From the NCBI GenBank assembly GCA_007692665.1, contig REBP01000120.1, positions 1 through 34,218 of the forward strand: a stretch of DNA of 34,218 bases. Direction: 5' to 3'. The position numbers and the translations under genes are program-made. The notes under the pieces are model-generated. The model ran no database searches. It was not told the DNA's origin and worked only from the letters and a program-made list of their open reading frames with translations. Below are positions 1,362 to 29,080 of this stretch, in pieces. Numbering within the stretch: position 1 is the stretch's first letter; each line of letters begins with the position of its first letter. Source of the DNA: Gemmatimonadales bacterium. GTDB taxonomy: Bacteria; Gemmatimonadota; Gemmatimonadetes; Longimicrobiales; Gaopeijiaceae.

Positions 1362-2895
1362 CGGAATCCTTGGGGGTCCCGCGGGAGTTCTCCTTCTCGC
1401 CGTCGGGATCGGTGCCGTCGTGCTGGGCGCATGGCTGTGGTTCAGGTCCCGGAGAACTTCCAGGAGCGAGCCCCCGATGCTGGTCTTCCCCACGCACCGG
1501 GCATCGCGTGCGCGCGGTGTGCAGGCCTTCGACGCGCACGTCTCGGGCGGACCCGCCAGCACCTCGAACGGGACTGCGGCCACCTCCCCCGGACCCGACG
1601 GCTCGAATGCGGCACGGCGTGACAACCCGATTCCGCCGCCCCGGCCAACGCCGCCGGCAACCGCGGCGCCCGCCGGGCGCGGGGCGTCCGATCCGGGCAG
1701 CCGCATGGTCATCTCCACGGCACCAGCCCCTCCGGGCCTCCATGCTCCCGGCCGCCTGTCGACTGGTGGAGGGGCCCAGCAGCAGCGCCCCCCCGACGGC
1801 ACGCTCCAGCTTCTCCCGGGCCGGTTCGAGGTAACCGGGGGACCGGGAGCCGGTGAAGAGATCCGGTTTGTCCGCCTTCCTGGCCTGCCCGCCGAGATCA
1901 CCTTCGGGCGGGGCGACGGGCCCGAGTATCGTCACGTGAGACTCGAGTCTCCAACCGTGAGTCGACAGCAGGCCAGGATCAGCTTCAACGGGGGGAACTG
2001 GTCACTCCGCAACGAGTCGAGCACCAACCCGACCTCCGTGAATGGCAGTCCCCTCGCATCCGACATCGAGGAAGTCCCGCTGAGTGACGGGGACCGGATC
2101 GAGATGGGGGAAATCAGCTTCACCTTTCATCACAAGGAGACGCGGGACCGCCTGCCCTTCCGAAGCTCCTGGCACACGGACCTCGGCAGACGCCCGACGA
2201 ACCAGGACGCCGTCATCGTGAAGTCCCTTCCGGACGGGCGCGAGCTGGCGGCGGTATGCGACGGGATGGGGTCGCACCAGGCCGGGGGAGAGGCAAGTCA
2301 CCTCGCCCTCGAGGCGCTGGTCGCTGCCCTCTCGCTCGGTGCAGGGCTCGTCGACGCAGTGAAGCAGGCCAACACCCGGGTCATGGATGCGGCCCGACTC
2401 GGATCGACCCGTGACGGCATCGGGACAACACTTGTCGCACTCCTCCGACACGGGGCGACCTACCAGATCGCGAACGTGGGGGACAGTCGCGCCTACCGGA
2501 TCGCTGCCGGGGGCGTCCGGCAGCTCACCGAGGATCATTCCTTCGTGGCGGAAGCGACGCGGGAAGGGCGCATGTCCCACGAGGAAGCCTCGCGCTCTCC
2601 CTGGCGGAATGCCGTGACGCGGAACCTGGGCGCTTCGGACCACGTCGAAGTCGACCTGTTCGCCGGGTTCGACGCCACCGAGAACCACCTGATCATCCTG
2701 TGCACGGACGGAGTTCACGGCGTCCTCGCAGAGGACGAGATCGCGGAGGTCTGCAGGCAGACTCCGGATGTCCGTGACCTGGCGCGGGCCCTCTCCGAGC
2801 AGGCGCTGATCCGGGGTGGAGAGGACAACGTGGCCGTGGCCGCCGTCTCCTTCGGTTCGCTCCGTGCCGCGACAAGCCCCACCACGGCGGAATGA
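1354..2895 (+). CDS. Membrane-anchored FHA domain-PP2C protein phosphatase
   Basis: The 513-residue protein has one N-terminal membrane segment (about 8-30), a Pro/Ala-rich linker (about 35-150), an FHA domain (about 160-260) and a PP2C Ser/Thr phosphatase domain (about 270-505). PP2C landmarks are all present: RPTNQD (D285), CDGMG (D303), NVGDSRAYR, LTEDHS, TRNLG, CTDG (D452) and GGEDN (D491). These supply the metal-binding aspartates, so the enzyme is probably active and removes phosphate from Ser/Thr in the cytoplasm. The FHA domain normally binds phosphothreonine; here the usual SRxH motif reads SRQQ, so the His is replaced, while the GR and VNG motifs remain. Its start overlaps the upstream gene by 8 bases and its TGA overlaps the kinase ATG by 4, so all three are probably translationally coupled. 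The natural inference is that it reverses or tunes the downstream kinase at the membrane. Family assignment is firm; the partner is inferred. Confidence 0.93.
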   Translation: MDNGILGGPAGVLLLAVGIGAVVLGAWLWFRSRRTSRSEPPMLVFPTHRASRARGVQAFDAHVSGGPASTSNGTAATSPGPDGSNAARRDNPIPPPRPTPPATAAPAGRGASDPGSRMVISTAPAPPGLHAPGRLSTGGGAQQQRPPDGTLQLLPGRFEVTGGPGAGEEIRFVRLPGLPAEITFGRGDGPEYRHVRLESPTVSRQQARISFNGGNWSLRNESSTNPTSVNGSPLASDIEEVPLSDGDRIEMGEISFTFHHKETRDRLPFRSSWHTDLGRRPTNQDAVIVKSLPDGRELAAVCDGMGSHQAGGEASHLALEALVAALSLGAGLVDAVKQANTRVMDAARLGSTRDGIGTTLVALLRHGATYQIANVGDSRAYRIAAGGVRQLTEDHSFVAEATREGRMSHEEASRSPWRNAVTRNLGASDHVEVDLFAGFDATENHLIILCTDGVHGVLAEDEIAEVCRQTPDVRDLARALSEQALIRGGEDNVAVAAVSFGSLRAATSPTTAE

Positions 2896-5800
2896 TGTCC
2901 GAGAACCGACAGGGCGACCTTCCGCACATTCCCGAGCTGGCCGAGGAGTACGATCTCGTCCGCGAACTCGGCCGGGGGGGGACCGCGGTCGTCTACCTGG
3001 CCCGGGACCGGGAACTGGGGCGGGACGTGGCGGTGAAGCTCATCAGGCCCAGCTTCGTACAGGACGAGGATGCGGTGCAGCGGCTGGTGCGCGAGGCCCG
3101 CACCGTGGGAAAGCTGCAGCACCCGAACATCGTCATGCTTCTGGGTACCCGGAGACTCTCGGACGGGGGCCTGGCTCTCATCCTCCAGTACGTTCCGGGA
3201 CGCTCCCTGAAGGACCGGATCCGGGCAGATGGACCCCTTCCCTTCGAGGACTGCGAAACCATCCTGCGGGACTTGGCCGGGGCACTGGCCTTCGCCCACC
3301 GGTCCCGGATCGTCCACCGCGACCTGAAGCCCGAGAACGTCTACCTCGACGAGACCCTGGGGATCGCGCGGCTGGCGGACTTCGGGATCGCGCGCGCCTG
3401 GGACAGTGATTCGGGGCTCACCCTCCCCGGCACGGCCATCGGGACCCCGACCTACATGTCGCCGGAACAGGTGGACGGGCGGGAGCTGGACGGCCGGAGC
3501 GACATCTACAGTCTGGGCCTGCTGGGGTACGAACTCCTGACCGGGAAGCAGCCGTGGGAGGGCGAGAGCCTCTACGCCGTCATCTACAAGCAGAAGCACG
3601 AGGACCTTCCACCCCTCGAGGAGATGAGGCCGGGGGTACCCGAAAACCTGCGTGTCGCCATCGCCGGCGCCGTCCGGAAAGACCCGAACGACCGCTGGAA
3701 GAATGCCGAGGCGTTTCTCGCGGCGCTCTCGGGTGAGCTCGCCGAACCTGGAACGCCGGGGTCCGCAGCGGGCAGCAGGGATGCATCGGGGTCGGTTCCA
3801 CCCGCCATGGCAGGGGTTCCCTTCCCGTCGGCGGGAGATCCGCTCCCGCCGGAAGCGGTTGGAGCGGCCCCCGTGCAGGGGTCCGTGGGCGCCCCCCCGG
3901 CGCGCCGGATCTCGAAACAGGGCTCCCGCCGAGTCAGGCTTGTCGGGATCGGAGTGGTTGCGCTGGCCCTGCTGGTGGTGGCGGGTCTTGCCGTGGCCTC
4001 CCCCGACGACGGTGTGCGGGGGCTGTTCGGCACCCTGAACCCGTGGGCCTCGGATGCGGGTCCGGTATGGGACGACAGGGCGTGGGCCCGGGATGATGGG
4101 CCCGGCACCGGCGAGGGCGGAGCACCAGCCACCGGCGATCCCTTCGGGGACGACAACTTCACCGATGGAATCGGTCAGTTCGACCCCATGGATCCCATGG
4201 ATCCCGGGGCGCTCGCCGGGCAGACGAGCGCATCCCCCGGCACGGGGGGACTCGCGATCCTTCAGGGGAACCGGCAGACCGGAACCCCCGGAACGGCGCT
4301 TGCTTCCCCTCTCATCCTTCGGCTGGTGGATGAGGACGGAACGGCGATCCCCGGGCAGCAGGTGGTCTTCGAAGTCACCGACGGCGGCGGAAGCGTCGAG
4401 CCCGGCGTCGACCGTACGCGCCCCGACGGGAGCGTCCTGGCCTGGTGGACGCTCGGAAGCTCGGGCCAGCAGCGCGTTCGCGCACGGGTGGAGGGGATGG
4501 ACAATGCGGCCGCGGAATTCCAGGCGGTCATTTCCACGGGGTCGACCCCATCCAGCCTCCAGTTCGTCTCGGGCGAGTCTCTCGAGGGCGAGGTCGGGGC
4601 TCCCCTCCCCGGTCCGGTGGCGGTGCGCGTCCTCGATTCGAGGGGCGTGGCCATGCCCGGCGTGGCCGTGCGGTTCGATCCCGGCGATGGCAGTGGCTCA
4701 GCCAACCCGGCGGTCGTGGAGACGGACGCCGAGGGGGTGGCACGCACGACCTGGACCCTCGGATCGGGAACCGGAACCCAGGAACTCGCAGCGCGCGTGG
4801 CATCGCGTCCGCAGCTCCTCGCACGCTTCGAAGCCAGCCCCCGGGCCGCCTCCCTCGCGGTGCGTCCGGCCCTCGCCGTCGGGGGGACCCACGCCTGCTC
4901 GCTTCGGTCCAACGGAACGCTCACGTGCTGGGGGGGCAACGAAAGCGGACAGCTGGGCGACGGATCCCGGGCGCGCCGGGTGTCGCCCTCCAACGACGTC
5001 CGGGGGGGCCCGTTTGCGGTCGTGGCAGCCGGAGTCTCGCACATGTGCGGGCTGACCTCCGGGGGAGCGGCACAATGCTGGGGTGCGAATGACCAGGGGC
5101 AGGCCGGCGGGGGGGCCGGAGCGCCTCTCAGCGAGCCTCGCCCGGTTTCGGGCGCTCCCGCCTTCGCGGGGATCGCCGTGGGGCTGGGCCACAGCTGTGG
5201 CAGGACCAGTGGCGGCGCCGTGTACTGCTGGGGGGCGAACGGAAGCGGTCAGCTCGGGGACGGATCCACGAGTCGGCGCGATACCCCCACACGGGTCGCG
5301 GGGAATCAGAGCTTCCGGTCCATCGCCGCCGGCTGGCAGCACACCTGCGGGCTGGACGCATCCGGGCGGGCCTACTGCTGGGGGAACGGGGGAGAAGGCC
5401 GACTGGGCACCGGCGGCGTCGGGGGCTCCTCCCGGCCGCAGCCGGTCCTTGGCGGCCACCAGTTCCAGCGGCTTGCGGCCGGGAACGCCCACACCTGCGG
5501 CCTTACCACGAACAACCGCATCCTCTGCTGGGGCTCGAACGAGTTCGGACAGCTGGGCACGGGATCGACGGACCGGGCGCTGACGCCCGAGCCCATCGAA
5601 CTCGACGAAGCCTTCAGCGAAGTGGCTGCCGGGGGCGTGCATACCTGCGGCGTGGCTGCCGGCGGCGCCGCCCTCTGCTGGGGGCGGAACCACTACGGAC
5701 AGGTTGGAGACGGCACCACGCAGGACCGGCTTTCTCCCACCCGCGTGGCGGGGTCCGCGCGCTTTTCCGAACTCAGGTCGCTGGGGTCGCACAACTGCGG

Positions 5801-20900: not shown

Positions 20901-23147
20901 TCACCACCGGGTGACCCCGATCTGGACGCTGCCGATCCGGGCGTCGTCATTGCTGCCGTCGCTGCCGAGCCAGCCCGTGACGGTCACCGTGCCCACGTCG
21001 CTCGGGTTGACCCGGATGGTGGCGACAAACCGGCCCTCGGTGTCCGTCCCGCCGGTGCGTCGGGAGAGCTGGCCCCCCGTGGCCCCCAGGAAGACGCTCT
21101 CGCCTGCCGTCCGGACCGCGTTCCCCGCTGCATCGCGAAGCTGAACGACGATGGTGGCCGTGTCGAAGGCGCGGATGTCGGTGGGCGTCACCGAGAGGGT
21201 CGATCCTTCCGCCGACACCCGGCCGACATCGACCCTGATGTCGACCGACCCGATGCGTGCCCCCTCGGCGTCGGTGCCCAGGTAGGCGGTCACGGTACCG
21301 GTTCCCACGGTGCCCGACCGGAGCGTCGTTTCGAACTCGCCATCGTCGTTGCTGGTGCCCGAGGTCCGGGCGAGTTCGCCGATCGTGGTCACGAGAAAGA
21401 CCTCGAGCCCCTCGCCTTCGAGGTCGTTGCCCTCGGTGTCGCGGAGCTGGATCCGGATTCTCGCGTTCTCGTCGGTCGTGAAGCGTGCCGGAGCGGCTTC
21501 GATGGTCGAGCGGTCCGCATCCACCTCGCCCCGGACCGTCACGGTCGCGGTGCCGATGAGGGGGTCCGAGGCGCTCGAGCCCAGGTACGCCGAAACCGTC
21601 GCCGTCCCGACCTGATTCGAGGTCAGCGTGGCCGTGAACCGCCCGTTGTCGTCGGTGGTTCCCGACGTGCGGTTGAGCGTCCCCAGTGATGTCGCGAGGA
21701 AGACGTCGTCGCCCCCCGTCGTCATGTCGTTCCCGTCCGCGTCCCTGAGTTGGACCAGCACGGTGGACGGCTCATCCCGGCCCACGCGCGAGGGGGTCGC
21801 CCCGATGGTGGAGGTGGACGCCGACGGGGGGATCGCGCGCTCCTCGACCCGGAGCCGCAGGAGGACGGTGGCAGGGGAGTTGACCGCAGCAGACGATGCC
21901 AGGCGTGCCCGGGCCTCGTAGGTTCCGGGTGCGAGACCGTCCGGGTCCATCCTCACGATGAGGTGGGCCGGCGCCCGGTTCGACGAGAGCCGGGCATCCA
22001 GCCAGCCCTGTGCCGAGCCCGCATGGTCGACGCTGAGCGTGATGCCGTCGAGGGTCCCGCTTCCCGCGTTGGTGATCGCGATGGAATCCGGTCCCGTAAC
22101 CGGCGCATCCTCCTCGACGACCCGCGTCAGACTTCCGGACGAAATGGCGAACTCCGGCGGCGCCTCCCCGTAGCGGTATCGGACCTGGACCACGGCGGGA
22201 CTCCCACCCCCCGAACTCGTGAGCCGCACTTCTGCGTCGTGGACGCCGGGGGCGAGGCGCTCGGGATCGACCCGGAGCACGAGGTCGGTGGGCGCAGAGC
22301 TTCCGGCGAGCGCGGCGTCGAGCCAGCCCGAGGCACCTCCGGAGGCGTAGGCGATGGACGCCTCCAGGCCGGTCAGTGAACCCCCACCCAGGTTGGTTAC
22401 CCGCACCGACTGGGAGGGGGGGGTTCCCTGTCCCTCCGACGAGGCGAAGCCGACGGCGCCCGGTGACAGGCCGATGGAGGGATGGGGATCCGCGATCTGG
22501 AAGACCACGGAAAGCGTTCCCGGGCTCACGCCGGAGCCCGCCGGGGTCACCGTGACCTCGGCCTCGTAGCGTCCGCTGGGAAGGCTTCCGGGCGTCGCGC
22601 GGAGGGCCAGGGTGGTGGGAGCCGACGTGCCGGAGAGCGTCGCCTCGAGCCAGCCTCCCTGTCCCTCGGTCCAGGCGATGGAGGTGCCGAGCCCCGTCAG
22701 GCTCCCGCCGCCCCGGTTCGTGACCGACACCGCGATGGGCTGGGTCGGGCTCCCGCCGGCCGTGGCGCTGAACTGGACCGCCGCCTCCGAGAGGGCGACC
22801 TGGGGGGAGGCGCCGACCTCGATCGATGCCATCGCCGACTGCCCCTGAACCGACGCACGAATCTGCGCGGTACCCGTCGAAATGCCCCGAACGAGCCCCG
22901 AACCACTTACCGTCGCGATCTCCGGATCCATGGACGTCCACTCGGCGCTTCGGCCCGTGAGCGGGGCCCCCGAAGCATCGAAGGGCGTGGCCGAGAGCTG
23001 GACCGTCTGATCGGGAAGGAGCGACGCCGACACCGGGTCCACCTCGACCGACGCCACCGTGGCCTCGGTCACGGACACGTCCTCGCAACCCGTGCCCACC
23101 GTCATGAGCACGAAAGCGAGGAGGATCGCGAGAGGTCGTTTCAGCAT
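20901..23147 (-). CDS. Large multi-domain Ig-repeat lipoprotein
   Basis: From the ATG at 23147 the protein has 748 residues. It opens with a lipoprotein signal (MLKRPLAILLAFVLMTVGTGC, Cys at about 21), so it should be anchored in the outer membrane or envelope. Domains in order: a BIG2-like Ig domain (V-x-S-V-E-V-D-P...A-T-V-S...G-T-A-Q-I-R-A), about three repeats of a BACON-like type with the pattern S-V-T-N-x-G-G-G-S-L-T-G-L and G-W-L-x-A-x-L-x-G-x-S-A-P, and three C-terminal invasin-like domains (V-Q-L-R-D-A-x-G-N...V-F-L-x-T...T-A-Y-L-G). The last type is clearly homologous to the repeats in the gene at 1-1361. The frame is open to 23363, but the extra 72 residues are Arg/Cys-rich without signal features. 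It is divergent from the protease gene. A surface-spacer or adhesion role is inferred. Confidence 0.9.
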   Translation of the reverse strand: MLKRPLAILLAFVLMTVGTGCEDVSVTEATVASVEVDPVSASLLPDQTVQLSATPFDASGAPLTGRSAEWTSMDPEIATVSGSGLVRGISTGTAQIRASVQGQSAMASIEVGASPQVALSEAAVQFSATAGGSPTQPIAVSVTNRGGGSLTGLGTSIAWTEGQGGWLEATLSGTSAPTTLALRATPGSLPSGRYEAEVTVTPAGSGVSPGTLSVVFQIADPHPSIGLSPGAVGFASSEGQGTPPSQSVRVTNLGGGSLTGLEASIAYASGGASGWLDAALAGSSAPTDLVLRVDPERLAPGVHDAEVRLTSSGGGSPAVVQVRYRYGEAPPEFAISSGSLTRVVEEDAPVTGPDSIAITNAGSGTLDGITLSVDHAGSAQGWLDARLSSNRAPAHLIVRMDPDGLAPGTYEARARLASSAAVNSPATVLLRLRVEERAIPPSASTSTIGATPSRVGRDEPSTVLVQLRDADGNDMTTGGDDVFLATSLGTLNRTSGTTDDNGRFTATLTSNQVGTATVSAYLGSSASDPLIGTATVTVRGEVDADRSTIEAAPARFTTDENARIRIQLRDTEGNDLEGEGLEVFLVTTIGELARTSGTSNDDGEFETTLRSGTVGTGTVTAYLGTDAEGARIGSVDIRVDVGRVSAEGSTLSVTPTDIRAFDTATIVVQLRDAAGNAVRTAGESVFLGATGGQLSRRTGGTDTEGRFVATIRVNPSDVGTVTVTGWLGSDGSNDDARIGSVQIGVTRW

Positions 23148-23527
23148 GGCGCTGCCCGGTGGTGTGACATGTGGGATCCTACCCTTTCGGTGCAAGGGTC
23201 CTGCCATCTTCTCCCGGGGCCTCCCGGAACCCGTGCTTTCCCATCGTTGCTGGGAATAAGGCTGAATCCAGGAGGACGCAACCCGGGGTGACCTGACGCA
23301 TCTGCACGACGAGGTGTGTCGAAAGGGCAAGTGTTTCCCGCAGGCGCAGCGGCCTGACCGCACTTGCTTGTTCGCCGGGCCGGCGGCCGACCGGATTCCT
23401 TGACAGGATGATTACAGCCCCCTATGACAAATGTGCCACCGGGTCCTTCAAGCTTCGACGGTGTGCCGGCCGCGCCCGGACCCGAGCGGTGAACAGATCG
23501 GTTTCCTCGTGCAGCAAGGAGCACATC
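23148..23527. other. Divergent intergenic region with a near-consensus promoter
   Basis: This 380-base gap separates the Ig-repeat lipoprotein (minus) from the protease (plus). The right third holds the promoter at 23400-23428 and the protease leader, ending in the ribosome-binding site AAGGAG (23516-23521). The left two thirds (23148-23399) carry no open frame that looks coding; no promoter for the minus-strand gene was clear to me. Confidence 0.5.
23400..23428 (+). promoter_or_regulatory. Sigma-70-type promoter for the protease gene
   Basis: TTGACA at 23400-23405 matches the -35 consensus exactly and is followed, after a 17-base spacer, by TATGAC at 23423-23428 as the -10 box. Transcription would start near 23435, giving a leader of about 93 bases before the ATG at 23528. 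The elements stand out in this GC-rich region. TGACAG, TTACAG and ATGACA occur at 23401, 23412 and 23424, about one helical turn apart, so a regulator could also bind here. Confidence 0.6.
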
Positions 23528-25159
23528 ATGAACGTTCCGATGCGAAACAGGTTCGGTGGAATTGCCGCGGTCCTGGGCCTTCTCGTCCTGGCGTCCTGTG
23601 CCGACATGGGCGACGAGCTTCCCACGAGCCCCCCGGCGGCGAGCGAGTCCGTAGCCCCAGTGGACCGGGGTCCCCAGGACTTCGGGCCCGCCATCCGGGC
23701 CGCGGAGCGCCATACCCCGGCCCTCATGCAGCGCCCCGGCGTGGTGGGGACCGGCGTGGGACTCGACGAGGAAGGCCGGCCGTCGGTGCGGATCTTCCTG
23801 GTCCATGGTCAGGTCCGGGACCTCCCCGCCCGCCTGGACAACGTCCCGGTGAGCCGTGTGGTGACCGGCAACTTCGTGCTGCGGCAGGACCGAACGGCCC
23901 GGGCTCGCCCGGCCCCCATCGGGTTCTCGGTGGGGCACCCGAACATCACGGCGGGCACCCTGGGCGCCCGGGTCACGAACGGCAGCCAGGTCTTCATCCT
24001 GAGCAACAACCACATCCTGGCCAACAACAACAACGCCAGCATCGGGGATGCGGCCCTCCAGCCCGGAGCCTTCGACGGAGGTTCGGAGCCGAACGACGTG
24101 ATCGGAACCCTCCATGACTTCGAGCCGTTCAACTTCGACTCGAACAACCTGATGGACGCCGCCATCGCCCTCGTGAACCCGAACGACATCAGCGGCTCGA
24201 CCCCTTCCACGGCGGGGTACGGGGCGCCCAGCACGAACACGGTGACCGCCACCGTGGGTATGGGCGTGCAGAAATACGGGCGGACCACCGGCCACACCTT
24301 CGGGACCGTGGCGGAGACCAACGTGACGGTGAGCGTGTGCTTCGAGACCCGGGGTCCGTTCACCTGCGCGAGGTCGGCGACGTTCGTCGGCCAGTTCACC
24401 GTCACCGACGGGAGCTTCAGCGCCGGGGGTGACTCGGGTTCCCTGATCGTGACCGCGAGCGGGAACAACCCGGTGGGTCTCCTCTTCGCGGGGAGCTCCA
24501 CCCGGACGATCGCGAACCCCATCCAGGTGGTCCTGGACCGGTTCGGGGTCACCATCGATCCGACGATACCGGACGGAAATGGCGGGCCCCCCGATCCCGA
24601 CCCGGATCCCACCGGGCCGACGGCCAGCTTCACCGACTCCTGCTCGGAGCTGGCCTGCACCTTCGACGGGTCTGGCTCGACCGCCGGCGACGCTGCCATT
24701 TCGACCTATGGCTGGACCTTCGGCGACGGGAACTCGGGCTCGGGAGCGACCGTCTCCCACACCTACGCGGCCGGCGGTACCTACACGGTGACCCTCACCG
24801 TCACCGACGCCGACGGGCTGTCCGATTCCGCATCCCGGACCGTTTCGGTGGCAGAAGCCCCGGGAGAGGGTGAACTCGGCATCCAGCAGTTCAATGTGAG
24901 CGCCCGCACCCAGGGGCCGTGGCGGCGGGCCGACGTCACCTGGTCGGTGTCCCACAGCGGAGGGGACCTGGCCAGCGTCAGGACCGAGCTCAGGAGCGGA
25001 ACCACGGTGCTCGATGCCCAGACGTCGTCCGTCAGCGGCGGCAGCGCATCCGGGGAGCACAGCGTCCGGACGCGGAGTGGTGCGCCGGACAGGGTGCGCC
25101 TGATCGTCACCGACGGGCAGGGCAACCAGCTCATCGAGGAGAAGCCTGTTTCCTTCTGA
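23528..25159 (+). CDS. Trypsin-like serine protease lipoprotein with PKD domain
   Basis: The 543-residue protein is a predicted lipoprotein (lipobox VLASC, C24). An N-terminal module (about 52-120; ERHTPALMQRPGVVGTGVG, then VRIFLVH...VVTGNF) precedes a chymotrypsin-fold protease domain with all three catalytic residues: H162 in LSNNHIL, D210 in NLMDAAIAL and S303 in GGDSGSL. It resembles bacterial relatives of the Nal1-like protease group. After a Pro/Asp linker comes a PKD domain (about 364-442; YGWTFGDG...YTVTLTVTDADG) and a final Ig-like C-terminal domain (about 450-543). The protease would act outside the cytoplasm. The start has AAGGAG 6 bases upstream and a near-consensus promoter 100 bases away. 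The next gene encodes a homologue of the N-terminal module only. Substrate unknown. Confidence 0.92.
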   Translation: MNVPMRNRFGGIAAVLGLLVLASCADMGDELPTSPPAASESVAPVDRGPQDFGPAIRAAERHTPALMQRPGVVGTGVGLDEEGRPSVRIFLVHGQVRDLPARLDNVPVSRVVTGNFVLRQDRTARARPAPIGFSVGHPNITAGTLGARVTNGSQVFILSNNHILANNNNASIGDAALQPGAFDGGSEPNDVIGTLHDFEPFNFDSNNLMDAAIALVNPNDISGSTPSTAGYGAPSTNTVTATVGMGVQKYGRTTGHTFGTVAETNVTVSVCFETRGPFTCARSATFVGQFTVTDGSFSAGGDSGSLIVTASGNNPVGLLFAGSSTRTIANPIQVVLDRFGVTIDPTIPDGNGGPPDPDPDPTGPTASFTDSCSELACTFDGSGSTAGDAAISTYGWTFGDGNSGSGATVSHTYAAGGTYTVTLTVTDADGLSDSASRTVSVAEAPGEGELGIQQFNVSARTQGPWRRADVTWSVSHSGGDLASVRTELRSGTTVLDAQTSSVSGGSASGEHSVRTRSGAPDRVRLIVTDGQGNQLIEEKPVSF

Positions 25160-25176
25160 TCGGCTCCGCTGAACAC

Positions 25177-25212
25177 CGGGCGCGCATTCCGGGGTACCGG
25201 GATGCGCGCCCG
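25177..25212 (+). terminator. Long hairpin between protease and small lipoprotein genes
   Basis: CGGGCGCGCATTCC (25177-25190) pairs with GGGATGCGCGCCCG (25199-25212) over 14 bp with one G-T pair and an 8-base loop. It is 17 bases after the protease stop and 16 bases before the next gene's start. Only TCATT follows, so it may act as a partial terminator or an mRNA-stabilising element between two cistrons. Confidence 0.55.
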
Positions 25213-25227
25213 TCATTGGAGGCCTCA

Positions 25228-25560
25228 ATGTCGAATCGAGCACCCCCGAGCGCAGCGCTCCTGCTTCCATTCCTTCTCCTGCTCCTGCCGGCCTGCGGCC
25301 TCAACCGCGGGCCATCTGCCGAGGAAGCCGTGCCCCGTCCCCCCATCGAGGAGGTCCAGGAACGCCACACGCCGGCGTGGATGGAGCTCCCCAGGGTCAC
25401 CGGAACCGGGATCGGCCTCTGCGACGAGGAGCCCTGCATCCGGGTCTTCCTGTCCGCCGCGTCGCCCGAGGCCGAGAAGGCCATCCCGAAGGAGGTGGAA
25501 GGCTATCGGGTGGAAGTGGTGGTGACCGGCATCTTCCGACCCCGCCGGCCAGGAGGCTGA
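25228..25560 (+). CDS. Small lipoprotein homologous to the protease N-terminal module
   Basis: The 110-residue protein has a lipoprotein signal (LLLPFLLLLLPAC, C23). The mature part (residues about 40-105) aligns with residues about 54-120 of the preceding protease: both read E-R-H-T-P-A-x-M-x-x-P-x-V-x-G-T-G-x-G-L, then V-R-I-F-L (here I-R-V-F-L), a variable middle, and V-V-T-G-x-F at the end. The small protein adds two cysteines (C65, C70) that could form a disulfide. GGAGG lies 5 bases before the ATG, so translation is well supported. It may be an inhibitor, chaperone or decoy for the protease, or just a paralogous module; this is inference. The frame is open further upstream to 24919, but that part is antisense-like overlap of the protease gene. 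Confidence 0.82.
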   Translation: MSNRAPPSAALLLPFLLLLLPACGLNRGPSAEEAVPRPPIEEVQERHTPAWMELPRVTGTGIGLCDEEPCIRVFLSAASPEAEKAIPKEVEGYRVEVVVTGIFRPRRPGG

Positions 25561-25582: not shown

Positions 25583-25834
25583 TCAGGGCTCGATGACCTG
25601 GCCTGACCATACCCGCTCGTGCTCGACGCGCGCCTGCATCAGGACGCCCCGCACCACGTCGGCGTCGGGGGCCTCGAACTCGCAGATGAGACGGGTCCGG
25701 TCGCGGGACTGGCAGCTCCGGATCCAGCGCACCCCGCCACGGTCGAGACAGGGTTGCAGGCGGCCGGTGATCTCCTCCAGGCGCTCGTCGGTGAGGGGAG
25801 GGTCGAAGCTGCGCTCGAGGATGACATGGGCCAT
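25583..25834 (-). CDS. DUF4242-family small protein
   Basis: The 83-residue protein (MAHVILERSFDPPLT..., with VRWIRSCQSRDRTRLICEFEAPDADVVRG and a final VWSGQVIEP) fits the DUF4242 family: short ferredoxin-like-fold proteins, one of which binds nickel. The family pattern of an E-R-x-F start, a W-x-x-S-Y-like centre and a D-A-P-x-P-E-like segment is recognisable. It starts 34 bases after the stop of the BTAD-AAA regulator on the same strand, with GGGAG upstream of its ATG, and is probably in an operon with it. DUF4242 genes are often found next to regulators of this type, to my knowledge, so the regulator may control it or sense with it. Function is not known. Confidence 0.85.
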   Translation of the reverse strand: MAHVILERSFDPPLTDERLEEITGRLQPCLDRGGVRWIRSCQSRDRTRLICEFEAPDADVVRGVLMQARVEHERVWSGQVIEP

Positions 25835-25868: not shown

Positions 25869-28800
25869 TCAGGAGGGTGCAGCAGCCGCCGCGGCGGCCC
25901 GGGCTCGCTCCAGAGCCTCCAGGGCGCGGTGCGAGGGACGGTGGTGGGGATGCGTCACTTCGGGGGCGTCCAGGTGCTTCCTCGCGGCGCGGGGGTCCCC
26001 CTCGAGAGCCGCGCAGTGGGCAAGGAGCGCCCGCGAGAGCACATGCAGGCTGGGGCGCTCCAGCGTTCGCGCGGCCCGGAGGGTCTCGTCGGCCCGCTCC
26101 CGGGCGGAGGCAGGGCAGCCTCGCGCGATGTCGTCTTCTGCGGCGTAGCCCTGCAGGTGGGCGATCTTCCAGAGGCTGTCCAGGTCTCGCAGTTCCTCGA
26201 GGGCGGCATCCACCCGCTCCATGCCGCCTTCGGCTTCCCCTCCCCTCCCGGCGGCCAGCGCGGCGAGTCCCCGGGCGAAGGCCCCCTGGACCGGGTCACC
26301 CATCCGCACCGCCAGTTCCCCGGTCTCGCGGGCCCGGGCCAGGGCCGCCGCGTACGCGCCCTGGTCCAGCTCCACCATCGTCATGCGGGCCAGCGCGGGC
26401 AGTTCCCACCACCGGTCGCGCTGCCGGCGGCCCCTCCGGATCACCTCCCGGAAGGCGGCATGGGCCGCCGCAAGTTCGCCGTCCTGGTGGCTCAGCAGCG
26501 CCCCGGCCAGGGCCACGACGTCGATCTCGAGCCCATGCGACCGCGCCAGTTGTGTGGACTCGTCGACCAGCCGCCGTGCGTCGTCCAGCGCCTGGTCCAG
26601 CAGCAGGAGACAGGCCGCGGTCTCGGCCAGCGCCCGGGCCGCGCTCCCCGGGTCCCCCGTGCGGCCAGCCTCGGCGGAGCGGAGCGAACTCCGGCCGGCC
26701 TCGTCGAAGGCCCCGCGCTGGTACTGGATCTCCATGAGGCTCGCATGCCCCTTGGCCACCGACTGCCCCAGCCCGAGGCTCACGGCCTCGTCGGTCACGC
26801 GGCGCAGCTCGTCCTCCACGTCGTCCGGACGATGGTCGGCGAGCCCGGCGAAGCTGTAGAGACGAAGGAGGTCCACCTCGAGGGGGATGCGGGTCTCGTC
26901 GGGGAGGCCCTCGAGCTGTGCGCGCCCCCGTTCGACCATGGTGGCCGCCTCGTCGTAGGCGAAGACCCAGAGGTGGTCATCCGCCGCCTCCGCGCAGGCC
27001 GCGGCGGCGACGGCAGACAGGCCGCCCCGCTCGGCGTGGTGAGCCACGGCGCCGGGGAGCCTCCCCTCGGTACGGTCCATGGCGTCGAGGGCCCGGGCGA
27101 TGCTCCGGTGCACCTGCCGGCGCACGGGCTCCGAGAGGCGGTCCGTTGCGGCCTGCCGGAGGAGCGAGTGGGTGAAGTCGTAGCGATCCTCCCCGCTTGC
27201 CCGCAGGATCCCCCGGCGCTCCAGCGTGTCGATGGCCTCCACGATCTCGTGGTCCGGCCGGTCCACCACCCTCACCAGCAGGGGCACGTCGAAGGCCCGC
27301 CCCAGGGCCGCCGCCCAGGGGAGGAGGGCCCGCGCCCCGGGGTCCAGTCGCTCCAGCCGGTCATCGAGTTCCTCCTCGATGCTGCGGGGGGTCTCTCCCC
27401 GCCCGGGGGCATCGGAGGTCGCGAGGGCCAGGGCGAAGAACGGGTTCCCCTCGCTGGCCGCGAAGACCCGGGCCGGATCGACCTCGCGTGCCACCGAGCG
27501 GACCAGCGTCTCCGTGTCCGGGGCGTCCAGTCTGGCCAGCGACACGCGGGCCGTGCGCCCCGAGACCAGCAGGGACCGGAGCATGCGGGCCACCGGCGTG
27601 GTGGGGGAGATCTCTCCCTCCCGGGCGGCCAGCCCGAAGGCGACCGGCGTCGGGGCCAGCTCCCGGACCAGGAAGTGAAGGAGCGCGGCCGACGACGCGT
27701 CGAGCCACTGGATGTCGTCGAGTACGACGAGAGCCGGCGTGCGGGCCTCGGCCAGCGAAGCGAGCCACCGGGCCACCGCGCCGAAGAACTGCGCCCGCGC
27801 GGTGGGGCGGTCGGTCCGCGCCCCCGAGGCCCGCCCCTGCAGCACCGCCGAGAGCCCTGCCACCTCCGCATCCCCCCCGAGGGCACCCCGGGGAAGTCCC
27901 GCCAGGAGGTCGGCCCAGGGGCCGAAGGGGCGCACCTCCTCGGTCTCGAAGATCGGCCCCGACAGGACCCACCCCCCGGCCTCGCGCACCCGGGCGACGA
28001 GTTCGCGGAGAAGCCGGGTCTTGCCGATCCCGGCCTCGCCGGTGAGGAGAAAGGAGTTGTCCCTCCCTCCGTCCCCGGATCCGTGGATCACGCCCAGGAG
28101 CGCCTCGAGCTCGGAGGATCGACCCACCAGCCGGGGCTCACCCGTGTCGAGGGCCGGGAGGTGATCGGGGGGCGGCAGGTCGGCGAGGATGGCGGCCAGG
28201 TTGCTGCCTGCCGGAGAGGGGGCGTCCGCCTCCGGGGCGTCCGCGTCCGGCTCCGCCGCGCGCGCGGATGGGGAGGCGGAAGGGGCCGCAGACGGGGACG
28301 CGGGTGGGGCCGCGGAACCGAGCTGCCACCTCGCCGTCTGCAGGGCCTCCGAGGGCCCCCGCCCCAGGTGGTCGGCCAGCATGCGGCAGCAGCGCTCGTA
28401 GACCTCGAGCCCCTGGTCCACGCGTCCCACCCCGGCCAGGACCTCCATGGCCTCCAGGTAGGCCGCCTCGGTGAAGGGATCGAGGGACAGCCGCGCCAGG
28501 GCATGGGGGAGCGCGGCTTCCGGGTCCCCCTGGAGCCGCCGGCAGAGGGTGGCATGGACCGAGACGTGGAGCCCGTGGAGCCGCTCCCGGGTGCCCAGCG
28601 ACCAGGCGGCGAACTGGTGGCACGCGGGCAGGTCGAGCCCTTCCACGAACCCTCCGCGGAAGGCATGGACCGCCTCGAGCAGGGCCTCGGTGGACGCCTG
28701 GCTCGCCTCCGCGGGAACGAGGGAGGTCACGCGGCGCAGGTCCACGTCGACTGCGTCCACGTCCAGCGCCACCCGGTCGCGGGCGCACATCAGGGGCTCG

Positions 28801-29042
28801 GCGCCCTCGTGGTGCACCACGTCCCGGAGCTTGGAAAGCGCCCACCGGAGCCCGGCCCGCGGGTCGTTCACCTCGGGCCAGAAGAGGTCGCAGAGCGCGC
28901 TCCGGGCGTGGGGGCGGCCGGTGGCCGCGAGGTAGGCCAGCAGGGCCCGCGCCTTCCGGGAGGGCGGCAGATCGACGCGCTCCCCACCCGTCTGGACCTC
29001 GAGGGGGCCCAGCAGATGGACACTCAGGCGTGGAGGGCTCAT
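25869..29042 (-). CDS. BTAD-AAA ATPase-TPR transcriptional regulator (AfsR/SARP-like)
   Basis: The 1057-residue protein starts with an OmpR-type winged helix (about 5-100; HLLGPLEV...RKARALLAYLA...LRWALSKLRDVV) and a bacterial transcriptional activation domain (about 105-240; LEAVHAFRGGF...AAYLEAMEVL). A low-complexity Ala/Pro/Asp/Glu linker (about 243-285) joins a STAND-type AAA domain with Walker A GEAGIGKT at 335-342 and Walker B ALVVLDDIQWLD at 437-448. The C-terminal half is helical and TPR-like, for sensing partners or ligands. This architecture is that of AfsR-like activators that bind direct repeats upstream of target promoters. AGGAGGTG lies 6 bases before the ATG at 29042; the 12-residue extension from 29078 has no support. 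Target genes are unknown; DUF4242 directly downstream is the most likely. Confidence 0.92.
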   Translation of the reverse strand: MSPPRLSVHLLGPLEVQTGGERVDLPPSRKARALLAYLAATGRPHARSALCDLFWPEVNDPRAGLRWALSKLRDVVHHEGAEPLMCARDRVALDVDAVDVDLRRVTSLVPAEASQASTEALLEAVHAFRGGFVEGLDLPACHQFAAWSLGTRERLHGLHVSVHATLCRRLQGDPEAALPHALARLSLDPFTEAAYLEAMEVLAGVGRVDQGLEVYERCCRMLADHLGRGPSEALQTARWQLGSAAPPASPSAAPSASPSARAAEPDADAPEADAPSPAGSNLAAILADLPPPDHLPALDTGEPRLVGRSSELEALLGVIHGSGDGGRDNSFLLTGEAGIGKTRLLRELVARVREAGGWVLSGPIFETEEVRPFGPWADLLAGLPRGALGGDAEVAGLSAVLQGRASGARTDRPTARAQFFGAVARWLASLAEARTPALVVLDDIQWLDASSAALLHFLVRELAPTPVAFGLAAREGEISPTTPVARMLRSLLVSGRTARVSLARLDAPDTETLVRSVAREVDPARVFAASEGNPFFALALATSDAPGRGETPRSIEEELDDRLERLDPGARALLPWAAALGRAFDVPLLVRVVDRPDHEIVEAIDTLERRGILRASGEDRYDFTHSLLRQAATDRLSEPVRRQVHRSIARALDAMDRTEGRLPGAVAHHAERGGLSAVAAAACAEAADDHLWVFAYDEAATMVERGRAQLEGLPDETRIPLEVDLLRLYSFAGLADHRPDDVEDELRRVTDEAVSLGLGQSVAKGHASLMEIQYQRGAFDEAGRSSLRSAEAGRTGDPGSAARALAETAACLLLLDQALDDARRLVDESTQLARSHGLEIDVVALAGALLSHQDGELAAAHAAFREVIRRGRRQRDRWWELPALARMTMVELDQGAYAAALARARETGELAVRMGDPVQGAFARGLAALAAGRGGEAEGGMERVDAALEELRDLDSLWKIAHLQGYAAEDDIARGCPASARERADETLRAARTLERPSLHVLSRALLAHCAALEGDPRAARKHLDAPEVTHPHHRPSHRALEALERARAAAAAAAPS

Positions 29043-29080
29043 GCGCACCTCCTGACCGGGGGGGACGCCCACCACCACCC

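Follow-up and report, generated by a model that had tools for sequence, protein, structure and literature searches.

A stand-alone NAL1_N-like lipoprotein as a probable dedicated partner of a bacterial protease of the NARROW LEAF 1 type

Within a 34,218-nucleotide stretch of DNA from a Gemmatimonadales bacterium (the window, by which we mean this entire stretch), a gene for an exported serine protease is followed by one for a small lipoprotein that resembles the protease's own N-terminal module. Comparative analysis strongly supports the view that this stand-alone NAL1_N protein is a dedicated partner of the adjoining protease, which its sequence marks as a secreted relative, in bacteria, of NARROW LEAF 1 (NAL1), a growth protease of plants. 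The original prediction had suggested that the two genes may be a protease pair built around a propeptide-like module; the pairing is upheld by a neighbourhood conserved across phyla, by one ancient split with subsequent co-inheritance, by correlated evolution with the catalytic domain and by co-occurrence in whole genomes, whereas the term 'propeptide-like' loses ground through the link to NAL1_N. The partner may bind the exported protease in trans and set its activity, most likely by restraining it, a reading in which confidence and doubt are about evenly balanced.

The locus and its two proteins

The protease comprises, in order, a lipobox signal peptide, an NAL1_N-like module (the cis module), a Nal1_C/S64-like catalytic domain, a PKD domain and a C-terminal tail (Table 1). 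Its lipobox reads LASC, with Cys24 as the lipobox cysteine; that of the small protein reads LPAC, with Cys23 and an atypical proline at position -2, and a separate Shine-Dalgarno-like sequence stands in front of each gene. In BLASTP, residues 54-120 of the protease and 39-107 of the small protein share 30 of 71 positions (42%, E=3e-11), confirming the proposed alignment of the 110-residue lipoprotein with protease residues of about 54-120. At the family level, a profile comparison between 52 protease-borne and 49 stand-alone modules returned a probability of 99.6% (E=2e-24). The protease and the small protein are the only two module matches at E<0.01 in the whole 4.2-Mb genome, so that the adjacency of the two modules is not a matter of chance. 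As the downstream neighbours are convergent, namely a gene for an 83-aa protein (25583-25834, minus strand) and one for a large regulator that we take to be AfsR/BTAD-like (25869-29078, minus strand), the pair appears as an isolated two-gene unit. Upstream of the protease lies a divergent gene (20901-23363, minus strand), whose long product contains repeated Ig-like segments, as recognised by eye.

Table 1. Features of the two-gene locus, in window coordinates
Feature	Position	Strand	Basis or remark
Lipoprotein serine protease gene	23528..25159	+	543 aa; ORF with SD AAGGAG before ATG
Protease-borne (cis) NAL1_N-like module, residues 54-120	23687..23887	+	BLASTP to stand-alone copy; profile-profile comparison
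Trypsin-fold catalytic domain	23906..24559	+	HMM boundaries; Foldseek of a relative's model
Catalytic His162 codon	24011..24013	+	invariant, 113/113
Catalytic Asp210 codon	24155..24157	+	invariant, 113/113
Catalytic Ser303 codon (GDSGS)	24434..24436	+	invariant, 113/113
PKD domain, residues 370-439	24635..24844	+	PF18911 (PKD_4), E=2.2e-21
Intergenic hairpin	25177-25212	+	16-bp stem, 4-nt loop; possible transcript-end or attenuation element
Stand-alone (trans) NAL1_N-like lipoprotein gene	25228..25560	+	110 aa; ORF with SD GGAGG before ATG
Trans module core, residues 39-107	25342..25548	+	BLASTP range
CX4C pair Cys65/Cys70 of trans module	25420..25437	+	across predicted beta hairpin; Cys70 is the near-invariant trans-type cysteine

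The long hairpin that had been noticed between the two genes is real, with its 16-bp stem, and the 86-nt intergenic region as a whole folds at -48.2 kcal/mol (z=-5.2). Strong hairpins also follow the protease stop codon in close relatives, their sequences differing. An intrinsic terminator between the genes was considered and rejected, as there was neither a pattern match nor a T tract. Since the genes abut in many distant lineages, leaving no room for such an element, we regard the hairpin as a local expression feature outside the core system.

Relationship of protease and module to NARROW LEAF 1

H162, D210 and S303 had been put forward as the active site, an assignment that holds in the family at large, as the His-Asp-Ser triad is intact in all 113 homologous proteases. 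Against the Pfam model Nal1_C (PF25819), the window protease itself scores 17.0 bits (E=0.0036), under the curated cut-off; 56 of 58 relatives match the model (best 1.4e-10), and one, L108, exceeds the cut-off with 31.0 vs 26.1 bits. Peptidase_S64, the family of Ssy5, is matched by 49 of 58 relatives at E<=0.1, more weakly than Nal1_C, and L108 reaches 23.4 bits here, with the curated cut-off at 23.6. The best solved relative in a family profile search was rice NAL1, which was also matched in Foldseek by the AlphaFold model of one relative (E=7e-17). The same model aligned with bacterial trypsin-fold proteases at TM scores of about 0.74-0.82, Streptomyces griseus protease B being matched at 0.80. 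Some Gemmatimonadota (L098, L103, L104, L111, L114, L117, L118 and L121) have a very long protease ORF of about 1160-1565 aa, roughly 770-1140 residues of which form a C-terminal extension; the small partner is still found downstream in most of these. At locus L080, a second module-protease copy (1503-3018), located 5' of the intact one, is apparently broken by a frameshift.

The module is less readily assigned. Window-type modules, cis and trans alike, have no direct match in Pfam or NCBIfam, and a Pfam search for NAL1_N in 121 Gemmatimonadota genomes gave no match, because this branch is too diverged for the Pfam model. A diverged form of the pair (L191) is present in Gemmatimonadota genome G244, and its stand-alone module passes the NAL1_N cut-off (28.4 vs 27 bits). 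A bridge profile of eight diverged modules, drawn from L191, Rubrobacter, Rhizobium, Tsukamurella, an uncultured phage and Aeropyrum coil-shaped virus, matched the window-type cis and trans modules in profile-profile comparison (E=6e-9 and 1e-11, respectively) and the N-terminal region of rice NAL1 in the PDB (E=6e-4). Through these bridging sequences, the module is recognisable as a probable homolog of the NAL1_N domain of rice NARROW LEAF 1. NCBIfam does not recognise the partner family as such and Pfam misses most of it; those of its annotated members that we encountered are named 'hypothetical protein'. For the trans module, AlphaFold2 predicts an alpha-beta-beta-alpha-beta fold with a mean pLDDT of 90. 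The best PDB match to this module, the MamM C-terminal domain, was not significant and was discarded as a solved fold, and ribosomal S19 and eS7 were set aside as relatives on account of weak sequence matches.

Combinations of module and protease occur in other settings as well. Three proteins from actinobacterial and Rhizobium plasmids (L202, L203, L206), annotated as 'DNA/RNA non-specific endonuclease', have an N-terminal region that resembles an NAL1_N-like module plus protease; the Tsukamurella protein (L202) carries an Endonuclease_NS domain (1e-42), and no stand-alone module gene was recognised among the neighbours of the three. Viral NAL1-like module-protease proteins are encoded by Aeropyrum coil-shaped virus (L207) and in an uncultured 484-kb phage record (L204); a stand-alone partner is not visible at either locus.

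Conservation, ancestry and export of the pair

A survey of the homologues' neighbours had been suggested as a check on the pairing. In 40 regions from the same bacterial family and 80 loci taken from the species collection of GTDB, two sets that have a few loci in common and whose counts thus include some duplicates, we found 113 proteases, of which 11 lie too close to a contig end; among the 102 assessable ones, 91 have a stand-alone module on the same strand, no more than 1.5 kb downstream, and the other 11 lack one. The pair occurs in at least eight phyla, including Gemmatimonadota, Planctomycetota, Pseudomonadota (Oceanimonas, Vibrio), Bacteroidota, Chloroflexota, Desulfobacterota, Nitrospinota and KSB1. 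A plasmid of Rubrobacter carries a diverged pair, with the small protein judged by eye; in Rhizobium, an 81-aa protein that resembles a very diverged module, again by eye, is encoded 8 nt downstream of a protease. In L089 and in one Gemmatimonadota family the order is reversed, with the small gene preceding the protease, so adjacency outlasts a change of gene order. In about a third of the pairs, the trans module starts no more than 20 nt after the protease stop, and such short gaps suggest translational coupling. At least two module copies were present in 55 of the 59 module-bearing Gemmatimonadota genomes, and more than two in none of the 37 searched genomes of the other loci. No protein bearing both cis and trans modules was found among the surveyed homologues, and a search for a conserved third gene beside the pair yielded shadow ORFs and clade-level synteny only. 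A role in anti-phage defence was dismissed, as there was no PADLOC match.

The association has exceptions. Some genomes encode a protease with no partner detected (for example Vibrio L090/L091, L112, L125 and L148), which counts against a strict need for the partner, as a toxin-immunity reading would have it. In Mariniphaga the stand-alone copy is located elsewhere in the genome; unlinked stand-alone copies are few, and the protease is still present in most of the genomes concerned. Small homologues far from proteases, named at the outset as evidence against the pairing, thus proved uncommon, the exceptions being these few unlinked copies and a set of fusions. In the latter (L047, L048 and L061, in genomes G029, G034 and G032), a trans-type module with two cysteines forms the C-terminus of a lipoprotein that looks like a beta-propeller by eye; there is no protease nearby, and a normal pair is found elsewhere in each genome. 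Trans-type modules in such a context weigh against a partner that restrains the protease and would be expected if the trans module were a docking tag through which other cargo is bound and brought to the protease. The presence of the fusions in genomes that also hold the pair speaks for such an adaptor, but most stand-alone copies consist of the module with nothing attached, and we consider this explanation quite improbable.

The ancestry of the modules was assessed in a tree built from 66 pairs, with the cis and the trans module of each. Cis and trans forms lie on opposite sides of a single branch (99/94), and the split is recovered in 98% of bootstrap trees, values that come from few alignment columns and a bootstrap not fully settled. 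One old split, followed by co-inheritance, is well supported by this topology as the probable history of the modules, and the single cis/trans branch rules out a recent local duplication. Sequence similarity and adjacency, taken alone, would fit a functionless leftover of local duplication; with an ancient split, a conserved cysteine and retention across phyla, however, this explanation is already refuted by the tree and the conservation, and we consider it hardly credible.

Evolutionary distances of the catalytic domain correlate with those of the trans module (r 0.62; partial 0.50 given cis; 0 of 2000 permutations) and with those of the protease's own module (r 0.47). The catalytic domain thus seems to track the trans module at least as closely as the cis module, which fits co-inheritance and alone is no proof of contact. 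The same correlation, together with the tight coupling of one partner gene to each protease gene and the retention of NAL1_N on the protease domain in NAL1 structures, can be cited in favour of an assembly subunit. The stand-alone NAL1_N protein would then be a structural or activating component of a hetero-oligomer, replacing or pairing with the cis NAL1_N and tuning assembly or substrate access while the active site stays unblocked. Signal-less stand-alone copies beside exported proteases are a poor fit for a permanent subunit, and we judge this alternative somewhat unlikely, although it ranks close behind that of a restraining partner.

These signal-less copies, and the cysteines that go with export, bear on the restraining partner too. 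A trans-type cysteine is present in 96% of stand-alone copies and in 0 of 98 protease-borne modules. A second cysteine, five residues before the invariant one, is found in 28 of 35 exported but only 1 of 43 non-exported stand-alone copies, with export called by a hydrophobicity heuristic (Fisher p=1.4e-13, overstated because related sequences are not independent). On the simplest reading, exported trans forms would have a disulfide across the beta hairpin, while the invariant cysteine would be kept in all trans forms, exported or not, for a separate reason. Of 78 distinct stand-alone copies, 43 lack an export signal, chiefly at loci where protease gene and small gene touch, whereas practically all proteases have a hydrophobic N-terminal segment that could serve as signal peptide, lipobox or anchor. 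A signal-less partner would thus have to act before export, or its topology must differ from appearance; a plain periplasmic inhibitor leaves these 43 copies beside exported proteases unexplained. They would be accounted for by a folding or export chaperone that helps the protease to fold or guards it before export, acting in the cytoplasm during synthesis where the signal is missing. In favour of a chaperone, half of the stand-alone copies appear to be cytoplasmic, with tight coupling to the protease gene, and subtilase propeptides are known to aid folding and then to inhibit (PMC6993865). The exported lipoprotein form, as in the window, nevertheless has the second cysteine, as would suit a protein active outside the cytoplasm, and the protease already has a module of its own; we consider a chaperone unlikely.

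A possible mode of action and its relation to known systems

If the stand-alone copy is a restraining partner, the enzyme would be a serine protease of the NARROW LEAF 1 type, exported as a lipoprotein, with its NAL1_N module preceding the Nal1_C/S64-like trypsin fold, and the partner, encoded just downstream and itself a lipoprotein here, would be expected in the same compartment. It would bind its cognate protease, where it would either compete with the NAL1_N module of that protease or pair with it, and would thereby set the activity of the enzyme, most likely holding it in check. A linked-chain AlphaFold model of the pair counts against this reading, as it reached a pTM of only 0.72, with the linker disordered. 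That the two proteins bind, where they dock and that the effect is one of inhibition are all inferred, the restraint by analogy with Ssy5 and SUB1-ProM.

In Ssy5 (Peptidase S64), whose catalytic domain appears to be related and is also preceded by an N-terminal region, the self-cleaved prodomain stays bound and the enzyme is inactive meanwhile (PMC12958826). We detected no sequence relation between this prodomain and the module; unlike in Ssy5, the partner in the window is a separate gene, and there is no sign here of self-cleavage as known for Ssy5. A parallel in gene arrangement is SUB1-ProM, a propeptide-like protein with a gene of its own next to subtilase genes and a proven subtilase inhibitor (PMC6993865). 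There, too, the gene for a stand-alone copy of a protease N-terminal domain adjoins a protease gene, but protease family and domain are different, and inhibition in the window pair is suggested by analogy. Moreover, NAL1_N is not a removed propeptide but still attached in the solved rice NAL1 structures, which weakens a reading of the module as a cleaved propeptide.

NAL1 itself (NAL1_N plus Nal1_C in Pfam) appears to have the same domain order as the window protease, an NAL1_N-like module followed by the Nal1_C trypsin fold, and the bridging sequences match both NAL1_N above the Pfam cut-off and rice NAL1 in the PDB. The window modules themselves fall under that cut-off, and the window protease differs in being an exported lipoprotein with a PKD domain and a stand-alone NAL1_N-like protein at its side. 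Literature searches returned no description of a role for the NAL1 N-terminal domain and nothing on bacterial NAL1-like proteases. In plants, NAL1 degrades TOPLESS-type corepressors, affecting leaf size in rice and flowering in maize (PMC12915138). Tentatively, and with doubt outweighing confidence, stand-alone NAL1_N proteins could form a class, widespread and undescribed, of dedicated regulators for bacterial NAL1-type proteases, possibly sensitive to thiols, with the NAL1_N of plant NAL1 being an activity-control domain derived from the same unit. The bacterial pair, in which NAL1_N is found within the protease and again as a distinct, co-inherited partner, offers a small, expressible test case.
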